A stretch of 64,000 nucleotides of DNA from Blattamonas nauphoetae (lineage: Eukaryota > Preaxostyla > Oxymonadida): contig JARBJD010000013.1 of NCBI GenBank assembly GCA_033064195.1, forward strand, positions 186,001 to 250,000. Direction: 5' to 3'. The notes beneath the pieces were generated by a model, which ran no database searches, was not told the origin of the DNA, and saw only the letters and a list, made by a program, of their open reading frames with translations. Each line of letters starts with the position of its first letter. Position 1 is the stretch's first letter. Below are positions 7,044 to 54,970 of this stretch, in pieces. Position numbers and translations under genes: made by a program.

Positions 7044-8897
7044 TAGACCCTCCACAAACCCGTTTTTAAATATAAACCCGTCTTTATTCAAAAATAAGAA
7101 GAATAGTTGTCTCAACTCGACAGGGAGTCAAAGTGAAGTGTACAACAAACGAGTCGCAATATCTAGGCAATCTGCTTCTTATTTTCGATGTTCGGAATGG
7201 TTTTTGAAAGAATGGGTCACAAAATTATCGTTAACTTCTCTCCGATCATTATCTATGAATGATCCAAAATTTGGCATCTAACTCCTCTTCTCCATCATTC
7301 GATGCAATTTTTCAACCGTTTTCCTGATTCGAATACAAGTCAACGTTCACCACACACTCCAAGTCTCGACCCGCACACTCTCTCTTACCACAGCCTCTCA
7401 CCATCCACCTAACATCATCGAAGTTCATCAGCCATACGTTTCATGCCGACTTCAGTCGATCATGTCCAGGCGGGGAAGATATTTACTCAGACACTTTCTG
7501 AAGCTATCTAGTCGCTGTGAACAAATCAAAATCAACCAAGCGCTCCACAAACAGATGAAAAGCCAGCATGACTTCATTGGATGCAGAATATATCCAAATA
7601 AATCACACCATTCCGATTTTGCCCAACCAGACATCCATCATCCAAAAATACCCTCTAATCCTCCCAAAGACCTCGTGGGCCCATCAGAACAAGTAAATTA
7701 GATCAGGAGCGGACGTATCACAACCTTTTTCTTCGCAGCAGATTGAATCGGTACGAGTGATGGTCTCGCTGATCACACGTCCTCAACACCATCCGATTGG
7801 GCAGCTGACCGAAACGTAGCTGGAAATTGTTATTCACTCACTGTTTCCACTCTTCCTTGTAGGTAAACGCGTGTCTAAACGCCTACAGATATGTTTCCGT
7901 CTGAACAACAGATCAACTCGCCACAAACGGAGAATGCCAAAAGCAAGAATGGAAGCTGGGAAGGAACTATTAAATCAACCAGAAACCAACAGTAGCGCTC
8001 ACACGCTCCTGAGGTCTGCCTACTCACACCTTTTCGTCCACTTCTTCCTGTTCCTTGCCATTCACTCCATTTCCCTCGACACAGCCTTCTTTCTATTTCT
8101 TCACCCTTCCCTCATGTTTTCCTCCTTACTTTTCCCTCTCCAGGTTCCCTCTCTCCCACATCTTCATCACCCCCTTCTCAACCGAAGAAGAGGCCAAGCA
8201 TATAAAAGGCTTCTTTCTCAACAACGGTCCCTTCGGAGGCTCAATGGAAGTGCTCCGACATCTATACACAATGCACAAATGTCATATTCCATTCACATGG
8301 ACTCTGATCAAACACATTACACAATTGCTCGCTTGTGTGCATTGGATGCTGCCGCACGAGAACCAGGACGGAAAGGATGAGCATTTTGTATCTTTCAATG
8401 TTTGTTGACATGAAATTCATTGGATTGGGGATATTTATCTCCTTTTCTCATCGCGTCTTTCCGTGTCATTTCTCCTCGATCTCATCAATTGTCCATAGTT
8501 CTCTCACTCTTCCTCTCCTTCCCCATCTCTCCCAGAAAACAAGCCCGCACTTCCGAATGCCAGACATGAACAATCCTTGGACAACGACAGTCCCGCTCAT
8601 AGAAGAACAATCACAGAAGCATCTGGGCATGCCCTCCACATCTTCTTCTCGTACATAAGAAAGCCACGACCAGCATCATCATCAAAGAAAAGGTATCGGA
8701 GTGAGAGAAAGATGCCCCATTGTTTGGAAACATTCACATTTCATCACTTCATTACCGGTTCATTTTTCTCTCTAAATTTCATTGTCAACGTGTAAATAAG
8801 GGTTTAGAAGAAATGAAAATCACACTATTATTCGAATTCTGGGTCTTGGTGAATAAAAACGGGTTTATATATTTTAGACGGGTTTGTGGAGGGACTA
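7044..8897. mobile_element. Non-autonomous TIR transposon with TTA target duplication (PIF/Harbinger-like)
   Basis: The ends are inverted repeats of about 45 bp: TAGACCCTCCACAAACCCG at 7,044 and its complement CGGGTTTGTGGAGGGACTA ending at 8,897, followed inward by a second ATAAACCCGT block on each side. The element is flanked by TTA at 7,041-7,043 and 8,898-8,900. A 3-bp T/A target is typical of PIF/Harbinger elements, so that superfamily is inferred, but no transposase is present. The interior carries a host-like two-exon reading frame (7,934-8,408). The rest is Thr/Pro/Ser-rich noise without recognisable content. Confidence 0.6.
7934..8408 (+). CDS. Two-exon host-like gene fragment carried inside the transposon
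   Basis: Exon 1 runs 7,934-8,013 and exon 2 runs 8,144-8,408, separated by a 130-nt GT...CAG intron with a strong pyrimidine tract. Exon 1 ends in phase 2, and joining the exons keeps the frame open for 114 residues to a TGA. The product starts MPKARMEAGKELLNQPETN and continues with helical sequence (EEEAKHIKGFFLNNGPFGG, MEVLRHLYTMHKCHIPF, LIKHITQLLACVHWML). I do not recognise the family. Because it lies within the inverted repeats of a non-autonomous element, it is probably a captured piece of a host gene. It could also be the last remnant of a gene in which the element formed. No expression evidence can be read from sequence. Confidence 0.45.
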
Positions 8898-9232
8898 TTA
8901 ACACATTCATTATTCATGTCATTTCATTAGTAACATTTATTTCACGGCAGTAATCACAGAACTCGGTTTTGGTGTAGAATGCACAGTTCGGTCGAAAATG
9001 AATGGTTGAGTCCCTTTTGTTTGGTGGTCAAAGTCACGATGGCATTGTTTCATTTAAAAAAGTCAGGAAAACGAAGACTGGCCATGGAGGGATGTGAATT
9101 ATGGCAGAAGAAAGAGTTGGTGAGTGTTTCTGTGTTCCACACATCCGAGATAACCAAGAAGACGCCCACAATCCCCAAAATGAAGAGAACACCAGTTTCA
9201 GAGAGACTGTCCCGTCGCAACAGTCAGCCGAG

Positions 9233-11440
9233 TCAGCTCAGCACTCGGTCACGCACATCCATCAGTCCAAGCAGCCTTCCCGCCAAGCCCTTCCTCACTC
9301 TGCTTGTCCTCGCAACTTTCACCATCACTGCCTCCTCCTCTTCTTCCAATCCTCCCCTCCCTTCTCCTCCTTCCGACAACAGTCCCCACCTCGCTCCTTC
9401 TCTCCGACTTTCCTCTTCTTCCCATCTCACTCCCATCTTTCTTAGGATCTGTCGAGTCACTCTCACAACTCGATCGTGTTGTTCTCGTTCCTCCTTCCTC
9501 TCCACTCTCTTCTCGTTCTCTTCGCGGCCTTCCTCCAACTTCACCAATCCCGCAAGTTCAAATCGAAGAAGGGCTCGGAGAATCTGCAGCGTCCCACTTT
9601 CTTTCATACGCGCCTTCTCCTTCTCGTCTTCACTCGATCTTCGGTTGTTTTCGCTGCTCTCCTCTTTCCCCTCCCTCTCCATCGACGACATCAACGCATT
9701 CAGCACTCCACTCCCCCTCATTCCCTCCCACTCTTCTTCCGCCTCTCGCAGCACGTGAAGTCCGCGCACGACCATCTCCACTCTCAACTCTCTCCCTTCC
9801 CCTCCTTCTTCCAGCATCCTCCCCACGAGACGCTCACACAAACACCCAACCATCCCCTCACACCTCATCACCCTCTCCCCCCACTCCTCCCGCAGCCATC
9901 GGAACTCCTCACGATTCTCTTCCCTGTTCACAAACGGCCCGGTCTCGCCCTCCTCTTCCATCTCAACCGCCGACTCCAGCCACCCCATCCCACTCTCCTC
10001 CACTCCCATCTCTTGCGTGGTCTCTCCCCTCCTCCCTTCCCCCTCTCCGCTGGTGTCCCTCAGACACCACAATCGGCTCTTCTCTTCCTCCATCCACTCG
10101 TACCGCTCTCGCTCGTTCCCCGCTTTCAATTCGTTCGCGCAAGTTCTCAATTTCTGCTGTGCTCTCCCTCCGATCTCAACCTCGTTCCATTCCATCTCGT
10201 CCTCATCCTCGTCTCTGTTCTCTTCCTCCCTCTCCCACCTCTTCCCTACCTCTTCTGACTCCGAATTGTTCCTCTCTTCCTCTCTCATCTCCCTCTCCAT
10301 GTTCCCCCTCTCAAACACCCAAATCCCTCGTCGATCCCGACCGACTCCCCCACGCCCAATCCACCCGTCCCATTCTCCTCCCCCTCTCCTCCCCATCCGA
10401 CTCACTCGCCGAAGCGTCGTCAACGACGTCCGAACAGCATCCCACCCCACCTCCCCCCACCCGCTCGACGCAACAAACAGTAGCTGATGCGACACCAGCG
10501 ACAGAATCCCAACCATCTCCACAACAGGCATCGGCAGTCTGAGATTGAAAAGAGAGAAAGAGAGGAAGAATGAGGGAAGAGGGAAGAAGAGGAGAGGGAC
10601 AACATGAAGGAGAGAAGAAAGAAGAACCAGAATCAACGTGTCTCCACACCTCCATCCTTCCGCCCCAAACCCGACCGTCCTCTCCGCTCTCCGCAGCTCT
10701 TCCCAAACCGCCCTCCTTCCTTCCTCCGCCCCACACCCCTCAAACACAGCGTCGTCGAACCCACTCACAAACATCAGCAGCGCCCACAAGCCCCATCGGC
10801 ACCATTCCAACGCGTCTCTCGCCAGCCCCCAACTCGACCCGCGGTTCGGCCCTACCCGCAGACAGAGCAGATCCCTCACCGAAGACGACCACCCCGCGAC
10901 CCTCCCTCTCCACTCCTCCTCTCGCCCGCCCACCCTCCTTTCTTGCTGTCCCGCCAGCCGTTCCTGCGTGCGCACTGTCAGCCATGTCGTTGTCTCCACG
11001 ATCGAGACCAGCAGTTCTCCAACAATCTGAGCGAAACACACAAAAACGCAAAAATCAGAGAAAACAGGAAGAACGACAAAGAAACAGAACGAACGACGAA
11101 AACACAAAATAGTCCTCCACCCAACACACCCCACTTTGAGCCACAATACTCCCCCACATCACGTTCCGATCTGCCGTCATCATCATCAGCGCGACTGTCT
11201 CTTCCAACGACCCAGCCAGATGAGGCGACGCAACACGCGACGCTCCTCTCCCTCCGCCTTCCTCTCTTCCGCCTGCACTCGTCCTCGTTCCTTCTGGTTG
11301 TTGGACAAAGACACGCGGCAGTTGTGTTCCAATTCTGACAAGATCAACAACAAAACAGCAAACAGAATTTGGGAAAGAGCCGCCTCTTCCCTTTCCGAGA
11401 TCGGTCGAGTCGAGTCGAAAAGAAGACGCAGAACCTGAAC
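9233..11440 (-). CDS. Multi-exon Glu/Arg/Gly-rich helical protein, unknown function
   Basis: The main exon covers 9,233-11,026, the C-terminal 590 or so residues. A GT...CAG intron at 11,027-11,105 (79 nt) joins it in phase 0 to an upstream exon ending GVCWVEDYF. The upstream exon reads on toward 11,440 (ISEREEAALSQILFAVLL, LSELEHNCRVSLSN), but a frame change near 11,200 means either another small intron or damage. A further in-frame candidate intron sits near 10,540-10,630, where a hydrophobic stretch ends at ATCTCAG; removing it gives GDTLPMPVVEMV. The body is helical, with Arg/Glu-rich linkers and Trp-Glu-Glu motifs, and recalls armadillo-like proteins. The coding strand is strongly purine-rich, which creates long Ser/Pro-rich open frames on the other strand that are shadows. 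Its 3' end was copied to 853-1,279. Function unknown. Confidence 0.55.
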
Positions 11441-11599
11441 ACACCCAAAACAGAAAAACATCACAAAACACGACACAATCCAACAAACCCAACAAATTTG
11501 AAAATGTGAACAGAAAACGCAATAAAAAGAATAAAACCGAACAAAAACGGAAGAATCAAGCTACTGCGAAGCAACAACACACGTGCAAATGTTGAAGTC

Positions 11600-11990
11600 C
11601 AACAGCGAGATCAGTCTTTGCCTGTTGTAACGTCATCCCGCCCTCCTCCTCACCCACCTCCACACTCCGCACAATCGCAATCGGGCTGAAGCAGACCACG
11701 CCGTGCACGAGCACTTCCAACAGCGCTGTCCCAAACTCCCACTCGTCCTTCTGCGGAAGGCAACAAACTGGAAGCGGCTGAAAGCGTCAGAACAAACAGC
11801 ACACACCGTACAGTCGTCTGTCTGCGTGCCAACCACGTTTGAGAGGCCTGGTACAAGGAACGGTATCGCCTCCAGGCCGAACACCATCTTGGCGAGCACC
11901 TTCTTCACGATTCGTTGCACTTCCCGTCTTCCTCTGTGCACTTCCGCTTCGTGGCCTTCTTCTGGCTGCTTCTGAAGTCGTGTTGGGGGT
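11600..11990 (-). pseudogene. Pseudokinase-like gene fragment
   Basis: Minus-strand pieces in two frames resemble parts of the degenerate kinase domain at 55,842-58,685. Around 11,970-11,860 is HRGRREVQRIVKKVLAKM followed by VFGLEAI, comparable to the helix preceding the catalytic loop. Around 11,755-11,600 is DEWEFGTALLEVLVHGVV and then IVRSVEVGEEEGG, comparable to FSLGLVLWEIETGCVPF of the intact copy. No HRD or DFG motif is seen between them and the pieces are not in one frame. I read this as a decayed fragment of a pseudokinase gene; it could instead be two exons of a gene whose splice sites I cannot place. Confidence 0.35.
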
Positions 11991-12773
11991 GTGTTGAACA
12001 TACTTGAATCTCGCGTTATGGGCTGCCCGAATTGGAGTCCCGGGAAAATTCTAATTTTGAAATTTGGGCATGAGGAATATGTGATGGACAAGGAAAAGTG
12101 GATTGCGAGAAAGTGAACCCTTTCTTTGTGTTTGATGATGTCGGGAGAAATGGGGAAATGATCACCAGTCACAAAGCAAGAACGGGCTTGACTGTGTTTG
12201 ACGTCGTCTAATCAATACAATAATGCATCTTTGCGGCTCCGAGAGAAGAATCAGATCAACAAGGGTTATTTCAGGTGCTGCACCAAATTGGAACCAGTAT
12301 TTGATGCGACGAAGCAAAGAAACGAGAGCTGAAGAGAAGGTCAGATTTCAAGATATATATCAAATTGATCAGGAGCTTGTATGTCAGATTTGATCGTTAG
12401 TGCGCCTATGAGTCATGCCAGACCGTTCCGCGGAACCATCCACATCACGATGTTCGGAGAGGAATTTTCTAAACTTGTCGCGATTTGGAGCAGATCAACA
12501 AAGAGTATATCCTTCAAAGTTCATTCCACGATGTTTTAGAGCCTATAAAATCAGTTTTCTTCATTGAAAACAGACCATTCATCTCCATGGTCCAGAAGTG
12601 GATATTGTTTGATGCGACGATCATGAAGGAAATATGATTGATATAAGCAACCAAATGCCTTGCAATTCCATTCAAATATGCATCCATGTGCACTGACAAC
12701 TTGACATGCGTCAACCACCTTGTCAAGCAACCATGATGGGGAAGGAAAGACATTCGCCCTTAATTCTAACTGT
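11991..12773. other. Intergenic stretch, nothing recognised
   Basis: No convincing reading frame, inverted repeat or tandem repeat was found. The sequence GATCAACAA(G/A)(G/A)GT occurs twice (near 12,255 and 12,493), each shortly after GAGCAGATC or similar, suggesting weak dispersed similarity. The right part presumably holds the promoter and 5' UTR of the large gene at 12,774. Confidence 0.4.
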
Positions 12774-15700
12774 ATGGCCGGATCACATCTTAACCTGCTT
12801 TTTCATGTATTTTCACGTCGTTTCAGCTCTGTTGGACTCACTACCAAGTTTGCTTATGAGAGTCAGTTCTCCATCCCTCTAAACTCGAAATTCACATCAA
12901 ATGTTTACAGTCGAGTTTTTTTTCTGTTTTTCACGAGTTTAGTCAATCTTTGTTGTCTTCAGATTCAGGTGGGCCGCCAAAGTTGACACTCCTCACCAGA
13001 CTAGCCAACTCGCCTGAGGTATCGTGCGGTTCCAATGATCTTCTCCCAGTTAGCACTCACCATCGATATGACTGGAACCCGACCTCTCTACCCCGGATAT
13101 TCTGGATAACCTGAGGACTATGTTGCGTGATGGAAAAGCTGGGCTTTTTTCCCTTCTATTTCCTCAACGTCAGAACCTGACATTTTTTGGATGCGTTATT
13201 GACACATTTCTCAAGTTTATACGATTGAAGAAGCTCCTTATCCGCTCATCAATTTATTCACATTTCCTTCCACTCTTCTTAACATCCATCAGTCTGCCTC
13301 TATCTAGTTTTTCACCATCACACCAACTCGATTCACAGTATGAACTCTTCTGATGTTATATCTGCTTCAAATTCCCAGAAATATAAGAGCGCCAAACTGT
13401 TCGTCCTCTTGAACGACTTTTTCATCTATTTTTAGTCCATAAGTCCCGGAAATCACACTGTTTGGTTTCAAGTTCGACCATCGTCATCCTATCGGATTTT
13501 TCGTTCCACAGAACTCGTTTTCAACTCAGATCACTCTTCTTCCTTTTGATGCAGGTTATTTCGGAAACGTTTATTGAGTATTAATCTCTCCACCATCTCA
13601 ACAAAATACTCCTTCAATTTCGACCCGATTTCCGAAAACATCGTAAAGAAATCGGAACCAAATTTCCATGGAGATGTCCCAAAGCCACTTTATGTTGACA
13701 TTGACTTGCTCAATTCGTCTTTCAATGAAGTGCTCCTTTTCTCAACTGATCTCGTCTCCTATATTGGGTAACTTCTCTATCACACATCACCCATGAGTCA
13801 TTACACCTTCATGTCACCAGAATTTTCGTTCTTTCAGAGTAACTTTGATGAAACCACAAGAAAGATCTGTCCATTGAAGAGTCTCTAAGGAATCCTCATG
13901 GGGGAGAATATTCCCCTGAAACATGATCTATACTTCTCTGAAGTTCTCTCACAGGCGTCAAACATTACAGGGATGACGTATGGCCATTTCCGGTCGAGAA
14001 CAAGTGATGACCTGATTTTGAGCTCGGTATGCTTTTTAATTGGAGATCACATGCCTGTATTGATATGCTTTGCAAACGTAGCTCACATCTCTGTCATTGT
14101 ATTCGTATTCAGTTGAGTCGAAAATGTACCTCCCGCGATACAAGTGTAACACGTGGAAAGAGATCCACACGTTGACAGTTGCACCTCAAAGAAACACGTA
14201 TGTTCCTGTTTCCCACCATTCTCTCTTCTTTTTGTGTTTGATATTTCAGAACAGATTGTGTTTTGGTTTTATCAGTTCATGGAGAATGGCTTCTTCTCCA
14301 ATGGAATTCGACGCAGTTTTTTGCGATGGCATCTGGTTCTCTGCAACAAGCCATCTCTGGATTTGTTCCCACGCCGACTGAACATCGATTTTTTCTGAAG
14401 CCTGTTTGTCTCTTCATTCTTGACATTTTTCAGTCTTTTGGTGAGCTTCTTTTCCCAATCCAAATCTCCCCGGATTCTCCGGAATGGTTTGAGAGGAGTA
14501 CTTGGAATTACTGTCGAACAGGAGATGAAAACGATCAAGTCTCATCAACCACAACGACTCCATCAAACACACCCTCATTCTCCGGAGCACCTGTCCCGAT
14601 CGTGTCGGTACGTGCTTTGCTTGTTGTTGATGATACGATATTCGTTGGGATCTCGTTCGATGGACCACCAGCATCCGTTTTGGAGGAGATATCAAAAAAC
14701 CAAAACGAGCCTCTCTCAACGACCCCCAAGCTGGTTGGATCAACAAACCGTTTTGTGATTAAGAACGGCCTTGAAGATGTATGGAATGTGAGACAACCTC
14801 GGGTCGATCGGGAAAGTGGAGATTCCGCCCAAGCCACCACAATTTGTGAAGCCAAGACATTTGTGTTTCTAGAAAACAAGCCAGATGAAGATTCAACACA
14901 GACTGATCAGAATAGTGAACAGGATTTTGTTATTCCGAGTGTATACTCGATCATTAACCGAGTTCGCCATGTGTTGATCCAACAAGCACTCCAAAGTCCG
15001 AAATTCCCGAAGTCATCATCAGATGTGGATGAAACACAAACTCCCCATGTTCAAGGAGAAGATCTTGTCGGAATGGGTGATGAATCACCTCTTTTGGAAG
15101 CCCCAACCGTCTCGCGAATGGACACCTGCTCAGCGTTTGTCCTGTGTGACACGGCCGCGTCAGTTGCACTGGTTCAGGTTGTTTTTGATTTCTCAAGACA
15201 ACGATTATGGATCTGGCGATCGTCATATGTTTCGCTGAGTCCCTCGTCATCACGTCTCCTGAAAGTGGAAGAGACGCAATTGAGAAGGCACTTGCGTGGA
15301 GCCAGCTTGATCACGATTGGTGAAATAGATTGCAAAACAGCAGACATCCACAAAACGGTTCTATCGTCAACAGTTGTCTCGAAAGAGGAAGGGGAAAATG
15401 TTAAGTCTGGACTGTCGTCTCTGAATGGATCGGAGAATTCGGAGATTCCATATCATGAAATAACGATCAGCGAAAACCCATCGTGCTCGGAATTGGCAGT
15501 TTTTATTTCCAGAGTGAGCAGGCAGATCGACGCGAACTGGAAGCAGCGCAACCCACTCAAAATTACCGCATCGGCAGCCAAACATCCCTTTCCGGCATCA
15601 TCAAACACACACGACGATGATTTTGTTCTGAGTCATCCGATTGCAGTGTTCGCCTGTGATTGTGTGCTTGTGATTCAACCGTCGCTCCAAGTGCTCTTCT

Positions 15701-36050: not shown

Positions 36051-36054
36051 ATAA

Positions 36055-37463: not shown

Positions 37464-38756
37464 TGAAACAAATAATGGGCTGGATCGAGCCAAAATGAGC
37501 AGCTTTTTTTCGCCCTCAAAATCACAAAATTTCTTCAAAAGTGTGTTTATTATGCAAAACCAGGCATATTTGGAAATTTTTGTGAGGGGGCACGGGGTAT
37601 GATTAAGCCGAGATATTGCGAATTCTGACATTGGTTTCAGATTCGGAAGTTTCTGTGGCGAACAAACGACTTCTCCACTCTGCTCTCTCCACCCTTTCCC
37701 AATCTCCCACTCTCCCAAAGAAGATCCGAACACGTGTCGGCCAATGTCTTTTTCTTTTGGATTCTGTTCCCGATGGGCCTTTCGTGCTTGTGGAGACAGC
37801 AGAATTCAGATCGATGGAACAAGCGCGCACCGAGTTCGAAAACCGATTTTCAGAAATGACAAAACACGAAAAGGAACTGGAAACTCAGATTTTTTATTTG
37901 CAACAGAAGTTGGACGAAGAGAAGAAGAAAGCAGAAACAGAAAGAGCGAAGTTTGAAGAAGAAAAGAAAACATTTGAAGAAAGGATACGAAATGCAGATG
38001 AACAGAAAGAACAGGCAGAGAAAGACAAAGAAAATCTATCAGATAAAGTAAAGAGATTGAGAGAAGAACTTCGAGAGGTAAGTGACGAGAAGGAGACGAG
38101 TGAGACAGATGGGAGTGAAATGGTCGACGAGATGGAACGGATGAAACGGGACTGACTATAGTTCATCAGCAATACCAACTATAGTTCATCAGAGGCCCAT
38201 AATTTCGTTTTCACTGATTTTTGCCAATTTGCCCTCTTCACGTTATGTCCATCTCTGACATCGCCTTTCGGATAGAAATATGCGGAATCCATCTACCCAT
38301 ATCGTGAGTGTCTCTTTGAGCGAACTGCAACGTAGAACTGATCACCCATGATTCATGAATCTGTATAGCGACTATCATCAATCCAGATGCGAGTACATCA
38401 CAACTGAGGAGACAGAACTCCAATGAGTATGACTTTTTGTCCTCACTTGGCTGCACAGTGCGGTGTCTTGAGGATTGGAAGAGCGACACAGCGAATCGAA
38501 AGTCTCTGAAAGGTCTCCGCTCCCTATCGTTGATTGTTTCCTCAGATGCACAAAATCTCAATCAGTGATGGATTTCTTGCCTTCTTGGACAGTCTCGTCT
38601 CGGATTAGGAAGATGGGGACGATGCTTCACATTACATATCGATTTGTTCCTATCTGGTCCACTGGATATGCTCATCATTAGTGAAGGACTCTCCCCTACA
38701 GTTTATGATGTCTCTTCGTGAGTTTTCAAACATCTTAAATCAACAATCCTTCCAGA

Positions 38757-39110
38757 GGAAGTGACTTTCTGATTACACAGCCATTATCCGGGTTTTTAAC
38801 AGTTTTGCACTATTCATGTGTCCTTCGCACGTTCTCAATCCTTCTCTCGCATTTTCAATCCTCAAAACCATATGATGCATTCACTCGAATCATCTCCCAC
38901 TCAAATCCGATCATCGAAGAGCTATCTCAAACCTTTCTCACCCTGAAGTTCATCCCCTGCACCTTTCTTGATCTTGTGACTCGATACATGAGTGGTGTCG
39001 TCGTATATCTTCTAAATCTCGACATTCTCGCCAATCCTGTCTCCCCACATTCCAGATCTTTGATTTCTGCACTCTCGGAGCACACTATCCTTGTTTCACT
39101 CTTCAGAAAG
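38757..39110 (+). pseudogene. Captured helical-repeat gene fragment inside the transposon
   Basis: An exon-like piece lies between an acceptor (TCCTTCCAG) near 38,756 and a donor (AAG|GTTTTT) at about 39,110. It reads LLSHFQSSKPYDAF, IISHSNPIIEELSQTF, LTLKFIP, DLVTRYMSGVVVYLL and SLISALSEHTILVSLF, typical of armadillo-like helices with strong hydrophobic periodicity. The open frame has no proper start and reads on into transposon sequence. It is best explained as part of a host gene carried by the element at 38,147-41,002. The parent gene is not in this window. Confidence 0.5.
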
Positions 39111-39181
39111 GTTTTTCCTACTGGGCGGAGCTCATTTTAATGGTCTTCCCTCTCAAACTTCTCCTCTTCCGACCCCCATTA

Positions 39182-40812
39182 CAGTTGTTGGACAATTTTG
39201 GGAAATTGGAAATTTTGCCGGAAAAATCCAATCTCCCAGAATTCGTAAACCGCAACCTTCGCATCAACAAAACAAAATCTGAAAGTGAAATTTGAAGTGG
39301 AGAAAGAAGACACACAGAGGTCTGGATTGGGAGAATCTGAGATGTGGAGACTGAATCAATGGGATGAATGTGGGATTGGAGTGGAGAGAGTGAAATTGGA
39401 CATATTCTCCGTCGTCTCCGCCGAATCAACAGACACATGGTTCAAAATATCTCTGACATGCTTTTCATCGATTATGCTTTTACTTGGTAGAGTTGTATGG
39501 TCCACACAGTATCCTGCCAGACGAAAAGCTGCTCTGACATTGTCTGGTGAACTTGCTGAAGTGTATGCTGTGTGCATCGATTCCATTGTTTCGCCAAGAT
39601 TGTCCACTCCTTTCGACATATGGGATATAGACATCGCCCTCTTCAACAATCCGAAGGTGAGACAGTCCAACGGCTGCAGATAGTGAGTCGCATTGGGAGG
39701 AAGGCCCTGGAGGATGATGTTGTGAGGTTCGATTGCACTCCTCGCTGACTCACCGAGATGAAAGCTCGCGTTGTCGACTAACAGCATTGCTGGGGCGTGT
39801 GGATTCCTGAGGATCCGTCGCTGCTCTTGAACGTAGGGGATGAGGACTCGGTCAGCCCAACGACAGAATACGTCGCTGTTGAATCCGCCTTTCTTCGAGT
39901 CATCAAACAAGATTGTACGATCGAGATCAAATTCATATTGGTCTAGTATGCTTGTATCTTCTTCACTCTTCAGCGAGACATACAGTGGCAGTGACTTCCC
40001 AAACAACGAGATACTGCCCATCACACTGAATCGCCTTTCAGAAGGATCAACTGGATAATGAAGTGGTCTGTCCTTTAGCTTTACTGATCCAATCAGAGAA
40101 TGTCTGAATGCGTCTTGTTTCTGCTGGTAGCCCATCTCGTCAGCGTTTATGAAGAGAAGAGGATGGATGTTTTGGAGAACTTGAGCCATTGTCGTGAAAA
40201 AGGCTTTGATTTGTCCAGTGGTGAGGCTCATTCGCGTGTTTGACATTGGCTGTGCGGACAGGAAACAGATTCTTGACTTGTGCCTATAAACAAACCAGTA
40301 TGCCCATGACTTACTAATGTTGTCTTTCGTAGAATGAGTCTTCCCGAATTGATAGATCTCGCTTGGAATCCACATATTCCCTTTCAGACTGTCTGCTTCG
40401 ATCGTTTTAAGGAGGAGCTCTTCATCCTCTCTCGACAGAACAGTGTTTATCTTTTCTTCGATTTTGTGATAGTAGGTTCCATGCTTGGCCTTGCTGACAG
40501 TTGATTCGCTGCAACCTAGAATGTGGCAGATTGTGGTTGGAGGGATTGTTGGAAGCGCGTGTTTGGCCGTGAAAGCCTGGAGTCTCCGCACTTGTTCAAT
40601 TTGAGACTCGTTCTCCCAACTCAGAATCATCGACACAATCTCGTCCAAATCAAACTCCGGCCATTTCAGTTGCGACAACGATTCGCGGACTGCACGTGCA
40701 TGCTCAGAAGGTATCTCAGTCCACATCTCAAACTAGGTGAACTGTAGGAGAACTGTAGTCAAAACATGTCAGGCACCGGATTTTCCAATTTCCCAAAATT
40801 GTCCAACGACTG
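39182..40812 (-). mobile_element. Pogo-like DNA transposon, apparently intact
   Basis: Terminal inverted repeats CAGTTGTTGGACAATTTTGG (39,182) and the complement of CAAAATTGTCCAACGACTG (ending 40,812) extend about 35 bp into ATTGGAAA. TA flanks both sides (39,180-39,181 and 40,813-40,814). The element contains one uninterrupted transposase gene on the minus strand and little else, 1,631 bp in all. It is inserted into the larger element at 38,147-41,002. A 385-bp derivative with the same ends is at 59,138-59,522. Confidence 0.9.
39356..40726 (-). CDS. Pogo/Tigger-type DDE transposase
   Basis: 456 residues, ATG at 40,726, stop at 39,356, no interruptions. The N-terminal 120 residues form a DNA-binding region with a helix-turn-helix (PTTICHILGCSESTVSKAKH) and a second CENP-B-like half (WIPSEIYQFGKTHST, WAYWFVYRHKSR). 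The DDE_1 catalytic core follows: first D in LLFINADEMGY, second D in PAMLLVDNASFH, third D in PPNATHYLQPLDCLTFGLLK, all at normal spacing. The order and the QPLD motif are characteristic of pogo/Tigger transposases (DDE_1 family). The gene runs opposite to the host gene it ultimately interrupts. With matching terminal repeats around it, the copy may still be able to move; that is an inference. Confidence 0.92.
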   Translation of the reverse strand: MWTEIPSEHARAVRESLSQLKWPEFDLDEIVSMILSWENESQIEQVRRLQAFTAKHALPTIPPTTICHILGCSESTVSKAKHGTYYHKIEEKINTVLSREDEELLLKTIEADSLKGNMWIPSEIYQFGKTHSTKDNISKSWAYWFVYRHKSRICFLSAQPMSNTRMSLTTGQIKAFFTTMAQVLQNIHPLLFINADEMGYQQKQDAFRHSLIGSVKLKDRPLHYPVDPSERRFSVMGSISLFGKSLPLYVSLKSEEDTSILDQYEFDLDRTILFDDSKKGGFNSDVFCRWADRVLIPYVQEQRRILRNPHAPAMLLVDNASFHLGESARSAIEPHNIILQGLPPNATHYLQPLDCLTFGLLKRAMSISHMSKGVDNLGETMESMHTAYTSASSPDNVRAAFRLAGYCVDHTTLPSKSIIDEKHVRDILNHVSVDSAETTENMSNFTLSTPIPHSSH

Positions 40813-41855
40813 TAACTATGTCGACCTATCAACGGAACAAGTATTTCAAACAAAACAGACACGGCTCAAAACAGTCTTCTTCTTCATTTTCCGTCATTAT
40901 TTCAATTGTTAATCAATAGATGTCGATATGTCTCACAGATCTCTAATTAAGGGATGCTGATGAACTATAGTTGAAACTGCTGATGAACTATAGACAGTCC
41001 CGATGAAACAGAAGGCGACAGATCGTCCGATTTGGGTTGGAACAGAATCTCTCCAGATACTCGACCGAACAGCCCACAAACTCTCTCCAACCACTCTCAC
41101 ACAAATCTTCAAGCTTGAAGTGGTTATAAATTGGAGAACAGCCTTCACTCTTCCAATCGACGAGGGAGAGTGGGAACTTAAAATTCGAGCGAGTGAAAAC
41201 ACCTTTTGGAATGTGAGTGTGTTCTTCTCTCTTCTCATCGTTTCAGTGCTTGGCTTCCTCAAACATCCACTTCCTGAAAACGCAACGGAACAGTGCTGTG
41301 GACAATATTTCGGTGGAATTGGTGGTGATTTCGTTCTTTGGTATGGACAAATGTGGAAAGGAGGAGAATTCAAGCCAGAAGGAACCAACAAGAAATGTCA
41401 GAGAATTGGGCAGACAGCAGCGATTCGAGTGAACATGAGGACTCGAGAAGCTCGACTGTTTGTGGACGAGGAAGAACAGCCTGGGATCTTCACCGACATC
41501 CCTTCTCCTCTCTGCCTCGGAATCACAACTCACAAAGAGAATCATCAAGTTGAAGTGTTGTGGCTCAAACAACTCTGACGGGGTTCTGTGGGAATGTCAA
41601 CTCATTGAACGACAAATTAATCACACTTTTTGTTTCCAAGACAGATGAGCGAGGAATATTAAAAACCGATTCAGTCTCGATGAGAATGGAATCGGACAAT
41701 GGGTAAATGGCAACCTAACGGTCAAACTCAAAACCACTTAAAAAGACATTTATTCCATTTCACTAATTCGTATATTGATGTTTTTCCACTTTTTAGGGTG
41801 AGCAAACGCCTTGATCGGAGTCAAGACCCATTTTTGTAAACCAAGGGTTGATCAA

Positions 41856-42375
41856 CAGGCTTCTGATTTGATCCCAGTGATCCCAGTCGGATCTGATCCC
41901 ACTAAATACCTACAATACCATTTCGTTTCTTTCATTTCAAAAAAGTCTTCTTATATATGATATTTGAATGGAAAAAAAAGTAAAAAGGAAAATGGTCACT
42001 TCATAGATCATGAAAATGCAAACTTTGGGTGCTGCTGTTCAGTTTGTTCTACAACAATAATTATAAAAACAAGTCGATAATGCGTTATTATGTCTTCTTT
42101 GATGGTTTTTTCTCACTGACAAAAGTCAATGAAGGGAATACATCGAAAAAAGAAGTGTTGGTGATTGTGATCGTGCGTGTTTTTGGGAAATAAGAGCTGT
42201 CTGAAATATTGAAGAGCATTATGTGAAAACAAGAAGTGAATTGAACATGATTAATGAAGTGATAATGAGAAAATCTCAAAGGAAAAGAGTTGAAATATGA
42301 TCTCAGTACAAATTTAGGCACTGACATCAATTGATCCCAGTTTTACCTATTTTGATGGGACTACTCAGATGCCTG
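41856..42375. mobile_element. hAT-like non-autonomous element, short copy
   Basis: The ends are CAGGCTTCTGATTTGATCCC (41,856) and the complement CAGATGCCTG (ending 42,375). The perfect 8-bp duplication TTGATCAA lies at 41,848-41,855 and 42,376-42,383. Subterminal sequence TCAATTGATCCCAGTTTTACC is shared with the longer copy at 53,310-54,970, in inverted orientation. The interior is AT-rich with no gene. It is inserted at the inner edge of the left inverted repeat of the element at 41,702. Confidence 0.8.
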
Positions 42376-42417
42376 TTGATCAACCTTCTTGACCGAACGA
42401 GGTACCTTTTCGTATTT

Positions 42418-42560: not shown

Positions 42561-42595
42561 GAATAGAATATGCAAACAGGAAAAAAAAAATTTGA

Positions 42596-42667: not shown

Positions 42668-43102
42668 ACTTTTTCTCTTTTTTTTGATCAATTTCATTTG
42701 ATTGGAGTCATTAAACGTTAAATCATCACTATTTACCAATTATTTGAAGAAATACTCTCTGAAAACGTTGAATTCTAGTCAATTATGACTTTCAAGGCGA
42801 TTGTGTAGGGATAGAGTTAGATCAACCCTTGGTCACAATCTGTGGATACACTGAAGGATCGAAGGGTTTGCTCACGTTAAAAAGCGAAAAAATGACAATA
42901 AATGATATAGTGAAATGTATTAAGCAACATTTCATCAACTTTTGAGTTTGACCGTTAAGTTGCCAGTTACCGGACAATGAATTTGGAATAACAAGATTGT
43001 AGCTGATTGTCGATGATTCATGGTGTGGTTTGGAGTGATTCTTGATCAAACCATTCTTTCGTTTTGATCACTTGCAGGAATCACCGAATAGACCGACTTT
43101 CG

Positions 43103-47323: not shown

Positions 47324-47326
47324 TTG

Positions 47327-47873: not shown

Positions 47874-48160
47874 TTTTCGAAGACTTCCTAATAGTTGTGT
47901 CACCAATATGTCCCATGTCACCAATCCGGCCTTTTTTCTGGAAAAATCAATATCGGTCAAACTAAGAAAAATCTGAAATTGAAGAATTAACGTACTCGAT
48001 TTAACCCGCAACTCCGGATAAACCCACACCCTGGATCTTCGGCCCACGATTCGGACATTTTCCTTGTTTCATCACTACTTCGCAGTTCTTTTATCAAAGG
48101 CTGCTCTAGAGAACGCTGAAACTCATGAAATGAATTAGAAACGATGGAATATGAAGATCA

Positions 48161-48747
48161 TCCCACGCCTTCCTCGTCTTCTCGCTCGTCCCACGCCTTC
48201 CTCGTCTTCTCGCTCGTCCCACGCCTTCCTCGTCTTCTCGCTCGTCCCACGCCTTCCTCGTCTTCTCGCTCGTCCCACGCCTTCCTCGTCTTCTCGCTCG
48301 TCCCACGCCTTCCTCGTCTTCTCGCTCGTCCCACGCCTTCCTCGTCTTCTCGCTCGTCCCACGCCTTCCTCGTCTTCTCGCTCGTCCCACGCCTTCCTCG
48401 TCTTCTCGCTCGTCCCACGCCTTCCTCGTCTTCTCGCTCGTCCCACGCCTTCCTCGTCTTCTCGCTCGTCCCACGCCTTCCTCGTCTTCTCGCTCGTCCC
48501 ACGCCTTCCTCGTCTTCTCGCTCGTCCCACGCCTTCCTCGTCTTCTCGCTCGTCCCACGCCTTCCTCGTCTTCTCGCTCGTCCCACGCCTTCCTCGTCTT
48601 CTCGCTCGTCCCACGCCTTCCTCGTCTTCTCGCTCGTCCCACGCCTTCCTCGTCTTCTCGCTCGTCCCACGCCTTCCTCGTCTTCTCGCTCGTCCCACGC
48701 CTTCCTCGTCTTCTCGCTCGTCCCACGCCTTCCTCGTCTTCTCGCTC
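48161..48747. repeat. 28-bp minisatellite, 21 apparently perfect copies
   Basis: The unit TCCCACGCCTTCCTCGTC + TTCTCGCTCG repeats from 48,161 to 48,747 with no visible differences. Because 28 is not a multiple of three and the unit lacks stop codons in most frames, all long open frames here on both strands (Arg/Glu-rich or Ser/Pro-rich) are by-products. The last unit flows into the minus-strand coding remnants. Perfect identity points to very recent expansion or ongoing slippage. Confidence 0.95.
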
Positions 48748-48759
48748 AGTGTCTGTTCA

Positions 48760-50260
48760 GCCGTGTTGGATATGTGTGTGATGTTTCAGACAGGATGGCT
48801 GGAAGTATCTGAGTCAACTTGCCCTTCTCACCGGCTTCTCTCGTCTTTCTCCCTTTTCACTCGTTCCTCCTCTTCTTTCCTCAGTCTCTCCTTCTCTTCC
48901 GCTTTCTCTTTTGCGGTTTGAGTTTCTTCCGGCCTCCTCCACAGCTTCCTGAATACCTGTCCATTCTCTCGCATGCAACTTCCTCATCTCCACTTTCCTC
49001 CTCTTCTCTATCGACTCGATCTTCGGTCCACGTTTCTGGTATTCTTTTCGCTGACGAGCGAATTCGACAAGGTTGGTTTGGGTCGCATTCTGCGTCTTTC
49101 CGAAGCGAATTTCCATTTTGTGCTTTTTTTCGCTCGAAACCTGTCACGTTCTGATGGGCTAGTTTCGTTTCTTTGAGAGAATATTTGTGGAGGGGATCTG
49201 GATTGTCATGTGGGCGAGAATAAAACATCAATGATACAGAAAATGGTTTAAGAGGCGAAATAAAGATAGAAAAACAACATTAAAGCACGGAAGTGCATCG
49301 ACTGTTCGAGTCCGAGTTCTGGCGTACCTTTTCAGGATCCTCTTCGTCTGCATTCTCCAACCCAGAGTAGAGAAGCTAAAACAGAGTCAGGAGAGAGAAT
49401 ATCACACTTTTGTGATGGCGTGTTCTTCCTCTGCAATTGCGATCAGCTGATGCGTGAACATGTTGTCGATCTGTTCGGCCGTCTGTGCCTTCCACTTGTC
49501 GAACTTCTTTTCTCTTCTATCCACCTTTTCTTTCATTTCGGAGGCGAGAAGAGACGGAGTGGCTTGTGGTCCGTTTTATACTGCGTTTCCCAGTTCGTGG
49601 CCTGAAGAAGAGAGATCAATCACAAAAACGATAAAAGTTGAGGAAAGAGAGCAGTGTCATGAAACGAAAATGAAAAGATCAAACCTGTGGATGCTCAGAC
49701 GAAGAATCGGTGGCGCCCTTGGGAGCCTGGTCGAAGAGGTGACTATCCATGTCGACGACGAATGGAGGCGCGGGAAACCTCGGAATACATGCGAATCGTG
49801 GTGATGCTTGTGCAGGAAAGAGGTGAGGAGAGTCCGACAGTTACGATGGACTGCGCATTGGAGGCGAGCCTTTCGATATGAGGTGTGATTGTGTCTGAGG
49901 CGTCTTCGTTGGCGATTGAGGCGGAATAACGGAGATGTTGGTTCGTGAAGACATATTTGAGAGCATCTGGTCGATTTCTTCTTGCCTCAGCTGCTTCAGC
50001 GGTGATGCATTTCGAAACAACTCGTGAGTGGGTGATTGACTGCAGAATGGCGGCACTTTCGTGGGGGACTAATAAAACACCGCAATTCCTCGCCGACGAA
50101 TCGTCCTCGACGAGATCGGGGAAGAAGATCTCGAATGAGTGTGTTTGGTCGTGATCAAATGATCGGTGTCGATTCTGAGCTTTCCATCAGCATTTGACTT
50201 GTTTCAAAGAGGAGAGGAGGATGTGAAACGGGATGGCGATGGGAAAGCGGAAGACAGTCA
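48760..50260 (-). pseudogene. Minus-strand coding remnants inside the fossil element
   Basis: Pieces with clear protein character are read on the minus strand, some bounded by splice-like sites: QSPTHELFRNASPLKQLRQE and ISVIPPQSPTKTPQTQ near 50,040-49,850, EMKEKVDRREKKFDKWKAQT near 49,530-49,470, HQLIAIAEEEHAIT near 49,430, and NLVEFARQRKEYQKRG with KIESIEKRRKVEMRKL near 49,080-48,980. They are disordered or coiled-coil in type and Ser/Pro- or Lys/Glu-rich. I do not recognise the protein. They may be cargo picked up from the host or an element gene. The unit is treated as part of the fossil. Confidence 0.4.
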
Positions 50261-51422
50261 CTGAGATCCAGAGAGTATGTCAGTCACCAGGGCTTCGAAA
50301 GTGTGGCGTTTGTCTGAAGAAATGACGATAAACCAGGTGATAGAAAAGATACAATACTTCAGAGTAGAAGAAATTGGATCGACAGGGGATGATTATTCGA
50401 GCATACCGTCTCGTTTCCTCATCGAAACATAAAGATGTTGAAATGTCGAAATCAAATTTATCATCAATTAGTGTAAGTTGTGAGGTGGATGGAGAGGGGG
50501 TGGAAGGGAGTGGATGGGAATGGAAGCTGAGGGCTGGGAGGGGATAGGAGAAAAGATGATCTGCGACAAAAACAAATCGTGAAAAAGATTGATAGACAAC
50601 AACGAAAGGCAACGAGTTGCGAAATAAAAATCCGAATACCCGTTCTAATTGCGAATCCGTGGTGTCGAATCTTCGGTTCCCATTCTCCTTCCGCGATTTC
50701 CTGCGTGCATGCTGGACGGAATTCAACTGAATGGCGAGAAAGGGTCGAGGATAGACGAAAGGTGGGGTACTCAGTGATTAGAGGAAGGAATGTTTGGAGG
50801 CGACTTGTCACGTGGAGTAACGTCCCAACCTGGTTGATGCATTTTCTTTTTTAAAATCATCCCACAATGAGAATGATCGAAACGAAGAAAACAAAATTTA
50901 GAGGAAATCTTGCGGATTTTGGATTCAATAAAGGTCTACAGTGGATACAGAAGAGATGAACACTTGAGGTGACTTCGGTTGTTCCAAAGTGGAGTTGTGG
51001 GTTTTCCCGAAGTTGCGTGTTTATCCGATGATGTTGAGAGGGAAATTGACGAACGTTAAAATGACGTGAAATGTGACACCAATAGTGAAAATTAGGTCTG
51101 TGTTCTGGTTTATCTCTCTTAAAAACAACAAAAATGATTCAAAAATGTTCGTGAAATGATGAAGATTACGGAAAAATTCCGAGATATGAAGTGAGCCGTT
51201 GAATGGTGGATCTCTGCAAAAGTTCGGAAAACTCAGTAAACGGGAATTAGTGTGTTATATTCGAGAAAAAGTTTAGTTGAAAGAAACATGAATGAAATGG
51301 CTTTTAAGGATAATCAACGAGAAAACGAGGACTGAAGTGAGGTCAAAAATGAGATGGTAACGAATGAGAATGAGGTGAAAGTTTTATCAAAAATAGAGAA
51401 AACATGAATTGAACAAATCGAA
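50261..51422. other. Gene-poor stretch of the fossil element
   Basis: AT-rich from 50,830 on. No supported gene, tandem repeat or inverted repeat was seen. It separates the minus-strand coding remnants from the plus-strand capsid-like piece, so it may contain divergent promoters. Confidence 0.35.
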
Positions 51423-52164
51423 GTGCAATCATACATGCCAAAACAGTGGGATTCCGAGCCGCACGTTTATTCAATCCAAGAAGTGCATCCAACAAATCCT
51501 CCAATGCCGTGTAGAATCACTGATGAGATTGAAGTGCCATTGTGCTATGACGGACATGATGTGACTGAGTTTTCGAAGAGTCATCTGCGTATCGATCTGA
51601 CGGTTACTGTTTCAGTTACAAAGTCGGGGGAAAATTTACCAATTGAAACTGTTGGAATGTATGGAATGTTCTTCGGATTCAAATCATCATCAGATGCAAT
51701 TCGAGATATGAGACTCGTCGACAGTCAAGGAAACATCATTGACAACACACTCCAGAACAATAACATCCACGAATCATTTCTGTATCACACTTTCAAGTCA
51801 TATGAAGAGAAAAACAACATGAAGCATTGCTACAGTCTGTGGGAAAATGTTCAGAGAATGGATCCAAGTGTGTGCGGATACTATTTTACTCCATTATTAA
51901 GAGGTGATACACCTTTCCCAAAAACAATCACATTTACAATTCCACTGGTGATTCCATTTGTTAATTTACTACCACTGAGTACGTTTGATCAGTATCCCAA
52001 TTCCATCTTTGGTCATTTACGCTTGAGATTTCACTTGACAACTGATTCGCTTGTGTATTGTCCAATTCGATCATCAACTGTTATTCGAAAAACACTTCAA
52101 GATTCATCTGATGTATTTCTTTATGCGGCAGTTAATGGAATACAACCATCTCGAATGAATTTAA
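51423..52164 (+). pseudogene. Capsid-like gene piece of the fossil element
   Basis: About 245 residues rich in beta strands and aromatic residues: SHLRIDLTVTVSVTKSG, FFGFKSSSDAIRDMRLVDSQ, TFTIPLVIPFVNLLPLSTF and IFGHLRLRFHLTTDSLVY. The pattern of a long strand-rich domain with an IPL...LLPLS...FG.L.L.F block resembles double jelly-roll major capsid proteins of Polinton-like elements. This is pattern recognition only. The gene is interrupted by MITE insertions and is treated as a fossil. Confidence 0.35.
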
Positions 52165-52763
52165 TAGTTGTGTCACCAATATGTCCCATGTCACCAATCC
52201 GGCCTTTTTTCTGGAAAAATCAATATCGGTCAAACTAAGAAAAATCTGAAATTTAAGAATTATACTCCCACACAATCCCGAGAAAACCTCAAAATACCCC
52301 CTTTTGCCCGATGAAAAACATCGTTTTGACAATATCTCAACAACCAGTGAATCGATTTCGATGAAATTTTTCACACAAACGTTTTTTTGGTGAAACGATC
52401 ATTTTTGCAAAAATTTGGAGAAACAATTCTGGATATTTGGGAAGATCGGAAAAAACCCATATTTTTCTCGACAAAATATTCTTAGGAAAAAAATCCTTTT
52501 TATTTTTTGTTCATCTTTTGTCGAGATCTATCCGACTGTTATGCCTTTTATTTGATTTAAAACGGATGGCTGGTTGTGGAGAAATGACCGCAAAAAGTTG
52601 AAAAAAATGTGTGCATTCGTAACGTAAAACGTATTTTGAGGTTTTCTCGGGATCGGGTGGGAGTATAATGCTAAAATTTTATTTTGTTCTTAGTTTGACC
52701 AAAATAGTCCCTCACAGAAAAAAGGCCGGATTGGTGACGCCGGACGGTTTGGTGACACCACTA
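52165..52763. mobile_element. MITE with TAA target duplication (Harbinger-like), 599 bp
   Basis: Inverted ends TAGTTGTGTCACC (52,165) and GGTGACACCACTA (ending 52,763) extend about 240 bp inward with good pairing (shared CAATCCGGCCTTTTTTCTG, CTCCCAC...TCCCGAGAAAACCTCAAAATAC). TAA lies on both sides (52,162-52,164 and 52,764-52,766). A truncated relative of its left end lies at 47,890-47,990. No coding capacity. Confidence 0.7.
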
Positions 52764-53309
52764 TAATAGATCCACTCAAAACCCGGAATTTCTCCTAAAC
52801 CCGGAACATGGGGGTTGAAAGATACATATTGGGCAAACTAAGAAAAAAATAAAATTTGAGAATTATAGACCGACGCAAATCAGAGAAACCCTCAAAATAC
52901 TGTATACAGCAACAATGCCTACATTTTTCTCAACTTTTTTGGATCGTTTCTCCACAACCAGCCATCCGTTTTGCACCAAATAAAGTGCATTGTTATCGTA
53001 AACATCTCGACAAAAGCTGCTCAAAAAATGAAAGATATTTTTTTCTAAGACTTTTTTCTCGAGAAAAATATGGGTTTTTTTCTATTTTCCCAAATATCCA
53101 GCATTTTTTCTCCAATGTTTTCTCAAATTGTTCGTTTCATCAAAAAAACGTTTTTGTGAAAATTTTCATCAAAATCGGTTCACAGGTTGTGAAGATATGA
53201 CCAGTTCTCCTGATTCAAACAGGTCCAAAAGAGGTATTTTGAGGGTTTCTCTGATTTGCGTCGGTCTATAATTCTCAAATTTTATTTTTTTCTTAGTTTG
53301 CCCAATATG

Positions 53310-54970
53310 CAGGCATTTGAGTGGTGGGATCAAAACAGGTAAAACTGGGATCAATTGATCCCAGTCCCCATTTTTTGACTGACATCACTTTCTTAAATAA
53401 GCGTTTCGAGATTTTTCTCATTAAATTACATCTTGGATATCCAAATTCTCAGAAAAACGTATTTTTTGATGATTCTCGAGCATTCCGATCGAAATGATTC
53501 TTTAGGAGAATGGGGTCGAGAACAAGAGTGAGGAAGAGTGGAGAAGAGCGATGGGATCAGAACGATTTATCTCCTCCACTATAAACAATGTCATCACGAC
53601 ACGAAAGACAAGTGTATGGCATTGAACCAACGAGCATAAATGGAAAAGCGGATCTCTCGTTTCTGGAAGATCTGGAATAAGGAACTTTGGAAAGAAAAGT
53701 TTGAATCGCTATTCTCTCGAACCCTCTCATGATATCTCTGTCAGATCGTCGATTTTGCGATCATATGTGAAGTTGAGTGGAATTCCGAATCAATAGTGTG
53801 ATTGATTCGCCTGCAATGCATCAGTCTGTGACGTTCTTCTCATTCTGTTTTCAGTTGTGACATACACAATCACGTTCTCGATGAAATGGCTGCTGACATG
53901 GGCAGCGGATCCGTCGTCGATGTGGGTGGCGGGGATGGGCTATAGATGGCTACCCTTTGTGTCAGGAACGATAGTCAATCTTGCGATGACGGATAACGTG
54001 CAGTTTGACATTATTGTTCGGGAAATCAACCAGATTATTGACCTTCTGGTGCAGTTGGTGCTGTTGACCGCGCTGTTGGTTGGGCTTTTGGATTCGTCGT
54101 CACTGTCGAGCATCTGCGTGATGGTTCGTGCGGAGGTGGACGATCGAGTTCAGAAAACATTAGAATCGATTCATGGGATTCGGGTATGTTCCTTTTGTGT
54201 TTGTGACATGTTTTGATTGCCGTTCAGGTGATCTCGATGAACTGATGGGAAGAGCCGATGAAGAAGGCGATTTCCATGATTCGTGAGCGAGAGATGGACT
54301 TCATTGGGTAAACAGAGAACCGGAAGAACATCCCTGCCTTCTCCTCCCAAAAACGATCACCAACCAAACATTACTAAATCTCGATTCGTCCCAAACAATA
54401 CTGCTCCTCATCGCCTCCTCATCCTCCCATCTCCCTCACTCACTCACCACCGCTCGCCCACCGACGTCTCCCGCACTGTGCAGTCGTCGCTACTGTCGTC
54501 TTCGTCGTCGATCCAAACCGCGCTGCACTTCCAAAAGTGTGCATCTCTCGGCTGTTCTTGCTTTCAATTTTTCAAAGTCGCTCTCCTTATTCGCTATCCC
54601 AATCTCCCATAGTCGGTCTCCTTCCTTCTAAGGCAGTTCAGCTTGTCTTTCCCAGAAATTTTCATTTCTCACTCATCACTTGTGTTTTGGACATACCATC
54701 AATTTTAACCGTAGGAAAAAGAATAAATCACCGAGTGTTCTTCGGATCACCTTCAATACCTCTGAAATTATTGTCAATCGGTCGTACTGAAAGCGATAAA
54801 AAGTTCACTTGTTTTTGTTCGATATAATGAACATTTTCATTTCATCTCTTTTTGCTATTCAGATATCATATATTTGAAGAAGGAAAATAATGAAAAGAAA
54901 CGAAACAGTATTGTAGAAATTAACTGGGATCAGATCCGACTGGGATCACTGGGATCGAATCAGAAGCCTG
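53310..54970 (-). mobile_element. hAT-like element carrying a captured host exon
   Basis: The ends CAGGCATTTGAGTGG (53,310) and CAGAAGCCTG (ending 54,970) are inverted relatives, and CCAATATG lies on both sides (53,302-53,309 and 54,971-54,978), a perfect 8-bp duplication. Its ends match the short copy at 41,856-42,375. No transposase is present. The interior holds an exon-like host sequence (53,855-54,240) and further coding-like traces up to 54,600. Confidence 0.8.
53855..54243 (+). pseudogene. Captured host gene fragment in the hAT-like element
   Basis: An acceptor (TTTTCAG, ending 53,854) opens an exon that runs to 54,183 and ends at GTATG. The 44-nt intron 54,184-54,227 ends CGTTCAG and leads to a short last exon with a stop. 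The peptide includes FSMKWLLTWAADPSSMWV, NVQFDIIVREINQIID, LVQLVLLTALLVGLLDS and RAEVDDRVQKTLESIHGI. It looks like a helical protein, possibly with one hydrophobic helix that is membrane-embedded or buried. GC content is higher than in the flanking transposon sequence. The parent gene is not in the window and I do not recognise the family. Confidence 0.5.

Follow-up and report, generated by a model that had tools for sequence, protein, structure and literature searches.

Do the transposons of an oxymonad protist pick up pieces of host genes and multiply them? This question is raised by a 64-kb stretch of the Blattamonas nauphoetae genome (C35:186001-250000, in the following the window), in which a preliminary description had recognized three unrelated elements with terminal inverted repeats (TIRs), here called E1, E2 and E3, and had proposed that each of them carries host-like exons with splice signals. 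Comparison of the window with the genome (88.3 Mb in 837 contigs) indicates that E1 and E3 are very probably non-autonomous DNA transposons that contain captured host-gene DNA and were multiplied as units, and that there is no demonstrated capture in E2. Parent genes with the same introns, located outside of transposons, are present for E1 (an LCAT-type gene on contig C190) and for E3 (an ABC transporter gene on contig C823). For E2 there is no evident parent gene and the matches to its supposed exon lie mostly inside E2 ends. Therefore, host exons are supported in two of the three families, but not in all three.

Termini, copies and cargo of E1 and E3

The three elements lie almost exactly where they had first been placed (Table 1), their ends recur throughout the genome with target-site duplications (TSDs) at most copies examined, and as regards TIR and TSD they may fairly be called unrelated. 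The pairs of ends are also found together at other loci, namely in 9 of the 11 scanned loci for E1 (exact motif), in 13 of 19 for E2 and in all 13 for E3 and its sister subfamily (eight copies of E3 itself and five of the sister). L043 is not part of this count by motif, in which L039 and L063 gave no terminal pair. E1 begins with TAGWCCCTCCACAAAMCCG and is flanked by the duplication TTA (7041-7043 and 8898-8900). Eight of the nine E1 pairs have a 3-bp TNA duplication (the variants seen are TTA, TAA, TGA and TCA), and only L002 is without it. The exact terminal motif of E1 occurs 217 times in the genome, the reversed-pattern control not once. Among the 100 of these 217 places that are listed, the pairs delimit elements of approximately 0.35 to 4.8 kb, and one interrupted pair on C140 has its ends 20 kb apart. 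E3 is flanked by the 8-bp duplication CCAATATG (53302-53309 and 54971-54978). A perfect 8-bp TSD was found at 10 of the 13 E3 and sister loci (five of eight E3 copies and five of five sister elements, of which L027 and L034 have common flanks and possibly represent a single locus present on two contigs); in the E3 copies L023 and L024 the duplications are reciprocally swapped, and L022 has none directly at its ends.

Nine loci in the genome are near-identical to E1 (five complete ones, two with an interruption and two whose match is limited to positions 1-1548), and 13 E3 loci were found at 96-100% identity. Four full E1 copies and seven full E3 copies are 99.46-99.95% identical to the respective window copy, and their flanks differ. 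The near-identity of the copies at these 9 and 13 loci points to a recent transposition of both elements. More distant relatives of E1, at 69-81% identity, are present on C257, C446, C282, C140 and other contigs.

From position 7,894 onwards, the interior of E1 matches C190:82338-83041 and C190:83085-83175 with 74% DNA identity over 700 bp (E=5e-116). The gene located there is complete (five exons, 421 aa) and annotated as putative phosphatidylcholine-sterol acyltransferase; its spliced protein is 100% identical to an annotated protein of Blattamonas nauphoetae, and two of its three scanned exon frames exceed the cut-off for Pfam LCAT. The two-exon frame that had been noticed in E1 is indeed present and corresponds to exons 4 and 5 of this gene. 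The intron in between comprises 136 nt, not 130 nt as first supposed, and intron 4 of the parent is of nearly the same length (135 nt). The exon 4 frame of E1 itself remains marginally below the Pfam LCAT cut-off of 21 (20.1 bits). No E1 ends were matched at the parent gene in the genome search, and none are located on C190 among the 100 of 217 motif places listed, which extend up to C207. The relatives on C257 and C446 (75-76% identity) and on C282 (70%) carry a common stretch unbroken (L035:3143-4176), which begins at the end of exon 2, contains the introns and reaches into exon 5. Since the exon 3 region of E1 is interrupted by stops and is likewise broken in the relatives examined, the LCAT fragments of the E1 family look like pseudogenes. 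An annotated LCAT paralogue, BLNAU_23899 (protein P0002), is without the stretch that exons 3-4 of the C190 gene encode, which is part of what E1 carries; this could be due to a deletion or to a gap in the gene model.

The cargo of E3 consists of five pieces of one gene, four of them collinear and one inverted (Table 1). The matches lead to C823 (E=6e-117 and 1e-78), where two ABC genes of the multidrug resistance-associated protein (MRP) type are located, L025 and its inverted duplicate L026, with 97% identity over 5.6 kb. The protein of L025 (P0010, 1,398 aa, annotated as multidrug resistance-associated protein) possesses two ABC_tran and two ABC_membrane stretches. In a blastn search with E3, neither of the E3 ends was found at either C823 gene copy. 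For E3, an exon, a 44-nt intron and a terminal exon had been proposed. The intron was confirmed, and at the corresponding site the parent likewise possesses an intron of 44 nt. The supposed terminal exon ends at a premature stop. Between E3 and the parent, non-synonymous and synonymous divergence (dN and dS) amount to 0.126 and 0.248 in one exon (128 codons) and to 0.124 and 0.241 in the following one (38 codons, two stops omitted), a pattern as would be expected for a constrained parent and a drifting element.

The sister subfamily (L027, 97-98% identical to three other members) has the ends and the 3' ABC pieces of E3, but a different 5' stretch of the same ABC gene and an extra inverted piece. 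It is quite conceivable, though in our opinion somewhat improbable, that the two subfamilies go back to two separate captures from this gene rather than to one capture with later deletions and inversions. Separate captures would account for the 5' ABC stretches, which cover L025 3724-4681 in E3 and L025 4661-5331 together with the inverted piece 5799-5693 in the sister subfamily. However, both have in common the junction that leads to the piece with its end at 6432-6433, as well as the inverted piece that begins at 7891-7893, and therefore at least this part was captured once.

None of the five wholly internal E1 frames of at least 98 aa and none of the four E3 frames of at least 110 aa matched a transposase in the Pfam scan. 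PIF/Harbinger elements produce 3-bp TSDs of the type TTA/TAA. The genome contains 79 DDE_Tnp_4 matches. As far as the 100 listed of the 217 E1 motif places show, no pair of E1 ends encloses any of them. A Harbinger label for E1 was considered and dropped, because no such transposase was found within the elements checked. The 8-bp duplication at the 10 E3 and sister loci is of the length known for hAT elements (PMC8903248). The three 6.3-kb elements with E3-like ends do not contain any of the 93 hAT-dimer matches of the genome, and the hAT label was given up for E3, again because no hAT transposase was found inside the elements checked.

Some further observations concern the two terminal families. 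One E1 copy (C335:347,067-352,305) is interrupted by approximately 3.4 kb of other DNA that probably stems from a nested insertion. The E1-ended element L043 (C701:188,500-191,500) has approximately its first 300 bp in common with E1 and contains internal open frames of up to 150 aa; L043-like elements with both ends listed, for instance on C57 and C90, have a size of 2.9 kb. The E1 relative on C140 contains an insertion of approximately 18.6 kb (about 80,170-98,790; edges at L044 ~2171 and L040 ~2788) with a 6-bp duplication TTCGGA and AGT...ACT ends, whose size and ends presumably resemble those of Polinton/Maverick elements. The 6.3-kb elements with E3-like ends (L031, L032 and L033 on C334, C233 and C468) possess long arrays near one end that match themselves at steps of approximately 30 bp. 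A short member of the E3 terminal family lies in the window itself, 0.85 kb from E2, and is similar to E3 only towards its ends.

Table 1. Positions of the elements and their parts within the window (position 1 is the first nucleotide of the window)
Feature	Position	Strand	Evidence or correspondence
E1, Pack-type TIR element, 1,854 bp	7044..8897	+	paired ends, TSD, 9 near-identical loci
E1, LCAT segment, very probably captured	7894..8692	+	decayed exon 3, intron 3, exon 4, intron 4, start of exon 5
E1, LCAT exon 4	8144-8399	+	alignment with parent and relatives
E1, LCAT intron 4, 136 nt	8400-8535	+	parent intron 4 of 135 nt
E1, start of LCAT exon 5	8536-8692	+	alignment with parent and relatives
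E2, composite element	38148..41001	+	Merlin-like ends GGGACTG[A/T]CTATAGTTCATCAGCA
E2, open stretch, 355 nt	38756..39110	+	acceptor- and donor-like signals; open in window copy
Nested pogo/Tigger-like transposon, 1.63 kb	39182..40812	-	TA TSD 39180-39181 and 40813-40814; ends CAGT[TC]GTTGGACAATTTTGGGAAATTGG
DDE_1 transposase frame of nested transposon, 458 aa	39356-40732	-	DDE_1 36.5 bits, cut-off 22
Short member of E3 terminal family, 520 bp	41856..42375	-	TSD TTGATCAA on both sides
E3, Pack-type TIR element, 1,661 bp	53310..54970	+	ends CAGGCATTTGA / TCAGAAGCCTG
E3, ABC piece 1	53585..53951	+	parent L025 3724-4091, 86%
E3, ABC piece 2	53948..54340	+	parent L025 4229-4681, 75% counting a 60-bp deletion
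E3, 44-nt intron in piece 2	54184-54227	+	parent also with 44-nt intron at homologous site
E3, ABC piece 3	54329..54513	+	parent L025 5165-5353, 77%
E3, ABC piece 4	54503..54558	+	parent L025 6376-6432, 88%
E3, ABC piece 5, inverted	54560..54652	-	parent L025 7891-7799, 76%

The E2 family and its open stretch

E2 extends from 38,148 to 41,001, and not from 38,147 to 41,002 as first described, and is flanked by the 8-bp duplication GATGAAAC (38140-38147 and 41002-41009). Its insertion disrupts a coding exon, as the flanks joined across one TSD form an open frame of 132 codons. The terminal motif, with at most one mismatch, occurs at 139 places in the genome and at none in the control. The TSD comprises 8-9 bp in 12 of the 13 loci with both ends. 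At the remaining locus, L057, it comprises 7 bp; the flanks of this locus match those of L050. More than half of E2 is made up of a nested transposon on the minus strand, which the preliminary description had not noticed. Near-identical copies of it occur on C92 (complete) and on C312 and C223 (fragmented), and the outer part of E2 has no listed match there.

These features fit a non-autonomous, Merlin-like family that contains a nested element of the pogo type. Merlin elements have 5'-GG ends and TSDs of 8 or 9 bp (PMC8101967), and so does E2 in 12 of the 13 two-ended loci. According to the same source, Merlin is found within Metamonada in Preaxostyla only. E2 differs from Merlin in that no complete transposase is shown inside an E2-ended element. 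There is only a partial IS1595-like transposase frame on C823 (L055; 24.3 bits with a cut-off of 27), approximately 2.3 kb from an E2-like left end whose right counterpart was not seen.

The preliminary description had assigned to E2 an exon with acceptor and donor. An open stretch with splice-like signals does exist in the window copy, but it is not conserved as an exon. That this stretch is nevertheless a captured host exon, whose parent was lost or diverged beyond recognition, would be in line with these signals and the 127-aa frame, and also with three weak or partial matches that are not placed inside E2 ends (C126, C701, and C235 with E=0.675). We regard this as unlikely, since 52 of the 59 six-frame matches of the stretch lie between two E2 ends and another four beside one listed end (C129, C149, C153 and C268), and since 52 of the 59 contain stops. 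Fifty of the 52 placements come from the motif list (all exact places and 7 of 46 one-mismatch places), those on C390 and C85 from end matches. No parent gene is evident among the 59 matches, including the three unplaced ones, and no Pfam family exceeds its cut-off in the stretch. The three codon positions also evolve about alike, with 17-20, 13-15 and 18-20 substitutions in the five more distant of nine comparisons. The dN/dS ratio, calculated with stop codons omitted, is 0.75-1.2 in eight of the nine comparisons and 4.8 in one, with three pairs of comparisons giving equal values. Moreover, approximately 130 bp of DNA are in common with the 1.25 kb that were read of a 6-kb E2-ended element on C279. 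It was also considered that the stretch might be the terminal exon of a long gene native to this C279 element; this was rejected, as the overlap in the part read is at the DNA level and no frame continues. E2 was therefore rejected as a third capture on account of the location of the matches, their stops, the even codon positions and the lack of a Pfam family, and we conclude that the stretch is probably element DNA with no demonstrated captured exon.

Acquisition and possible use of the cargo

Very probably, E1 and E3 each took up genomic DNA from a host gene, which came to lie between the TIRs, and were then multiplied as units by a transposase that was presumably supplied in trans. E1 took a stretch of an LCAT-type gene together with its introns. 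In the E3 lineage, several stretches were taken from a single MRP-like ABC gene, and the two subfamilies together show deletions and two inverted pieces. Because introns are retained in both E1 and E3, capture at the level of DNA is favoured over capture from mRNA, and it may have occurred via template switching during repair or replication. The presence of inverted next to collinear pieces of one gene would fit template switching or a later rearrangement.

Several points weigh against this explanation. The overlap at the seven ABC junctions, which would be the customary mark of template switching, averages 6.1 columns compared to 2.9 in simulated random joins (290 scored of 300 simulated), which is not significantly longer (P=0.16), and microhomology is therefore not claimed. 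The identity between parents and fragments is only 74-88%, so that the actual donor could be a paralogue that has been lost or was not sampled. The gene model of the second ABC copy on C823 is shorter (1,115 aa), and therefore only one full ABC parent is shown. No autonomous partner for E1 or E3 was identified among the DDE_Tnp_4 and hAT-dimer matches and the elements checked. A dN/dS ratio of about 0.5 between E3 and its parent does not exclude a past spell of constraint, and the two deletions in E3 (141 and 60 bp by alignment) preserve the frame, although two events prove little.

It was also considered that LCAT-like and ABC-like genes are the ancestral cargo of larger autonomous elements and that the chromosomal genes are domesticated copies. 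In favour of this, the carriers examined within each family all share a single donor gene, and different portions of one ABC gene are present in the two E3 subfamilies, which is what one would expect if both had arisen by deletion from a longer cargo. However, complete LCAT and ABC genes, which have homologues in other eukaryotes, are located outside of the elements, the E3 ends were not found at either C823 copy, and the 520-bp element with E3-type ends shares only its terminal parts with E3. An ancestral cargo is thus extremely improbable, and capture from chromosomal genes is the explanation that we follow here.

After capture, the fragments would drift neutrally and yet keep their splice sites, and a gene in which a copy lands could thereby gain new exons. 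This is predicted for BLNAU_12161, where the signs of such an effect are clearest. The first 47 residues of this 206-aa protein match E3 at 100% and residues 48-65 at 94%, and residues 67-206 are 100% identical to the DNA flanking the E3 copy L024 on C836, the latter part matching a protein kinase domain. L024 and L023 (C836:45,101-53,110) are oppositely oriented E3 copies, and their swapped duplications GAAATGTG and TTTATCAA are evidence for an inversion by recombination between two oppositely placed E3 copies. If the left flank of L023 and the right flank of L024 are joined at GAAATGTG, a single open frame results, which contains both a hydrophobic stretch and the part that belongs to the kinase. 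From this open frame and the swapped TSDs we infer that E3 was inserted in a kinase gene, whose halves were then separated by the inversion with the second copy. In the predicted gene BLNAU_12161, the annotation would accordingly assign E3-derived leading exons to the 3' half of the kinase.

One could go further and assume that in an oxymonad, Pack-type elements from at least two TIR families serve as a functioning exon-shuffling system, in which host exons are copied, spread and, via their ready-made splice sites, built into expressed chimeric genes such as the predicted BLNAU_12161 after the landing of E3 in the C836 kinase gene. We consider this wider assumption tentative and rather doubtful.

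Comparison with known gene-capturing transposons

E1 and E3 have the testable features of Pack-TYPE or Pack-TIR elements, namely TIRs with a TSD, dispersed copies, a host fragment with an intact copy elsewhere and no transposase of their own in long frames. Transduplication has reportedly been observed in fungi as well. Outside of plants, gene capture by TIR elements is described for a case in C. elegans (PMC2572040) and in a survey of 100 animal genomes (PMC8277862). The excerpted parts of four further papers (PMC6446971, PMC2725143, PMC6431247, PMC13317346) contain no protist case of gene capture, and we found no earlier report of gene capture by TIR elements in Preaxostyla in limited searches of the openly licensed literature, which is no proof of absence.

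The published assembly of Blattamonas nauphoetae comprises 88.5 Mb in 879 contigs with 25,221 gene models, and only known repeat families were masked before gene prediction (PMC10703272). The word stem "transpos" is absent from the main text of this genome paper. Gene counts of such genomes may include transposon-borne fragments.

Turmoil-1 of C. elegans (PMC2572040) is similar to E1 and E3 in that a DNA transposon contains fragments of protein-coding host genes and in that a new frame possibly arises by insertion. However, its fragments are located in the terminal repeats, whereas those of E1 and E3 lie between them. The Pack-TIRs of animals (PMC8277862) are likewise TIR elements with captured host DNA that form multicopy families. 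A proportion of them is transcribed, often as chimeras with neighbouring sequence, whereas the chimera described here is a gene model only, and the microhomology signal of animal Pack-TIRs is not significant in our case.

In plants, Pack-TYPE elements include Pack-MULE, Pack-CACTA, hAT, PIF and Mariner types (PMC8903248), and most reported Pack-MULEs have a size of 1-2 kb (PMC6431247). Plant Pack-TYPE elements and E1 and E3 are alike in being non-autonomous, bounded by TIRs and TSDs, equipped with host fragments and multicopy, and in belonging to more than one superfamily per genome (PMC8903248). They differ in the oxymonad host, in the unproven superfamily of E1 and E3 and in the TNA duplication of E1. 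Most work on gene capture by TIR transposons has dealt with plants, and the occurrence of two such families in one 64-kb window of Blattamonas suggests that this capture may be a general property of TIR transposons.

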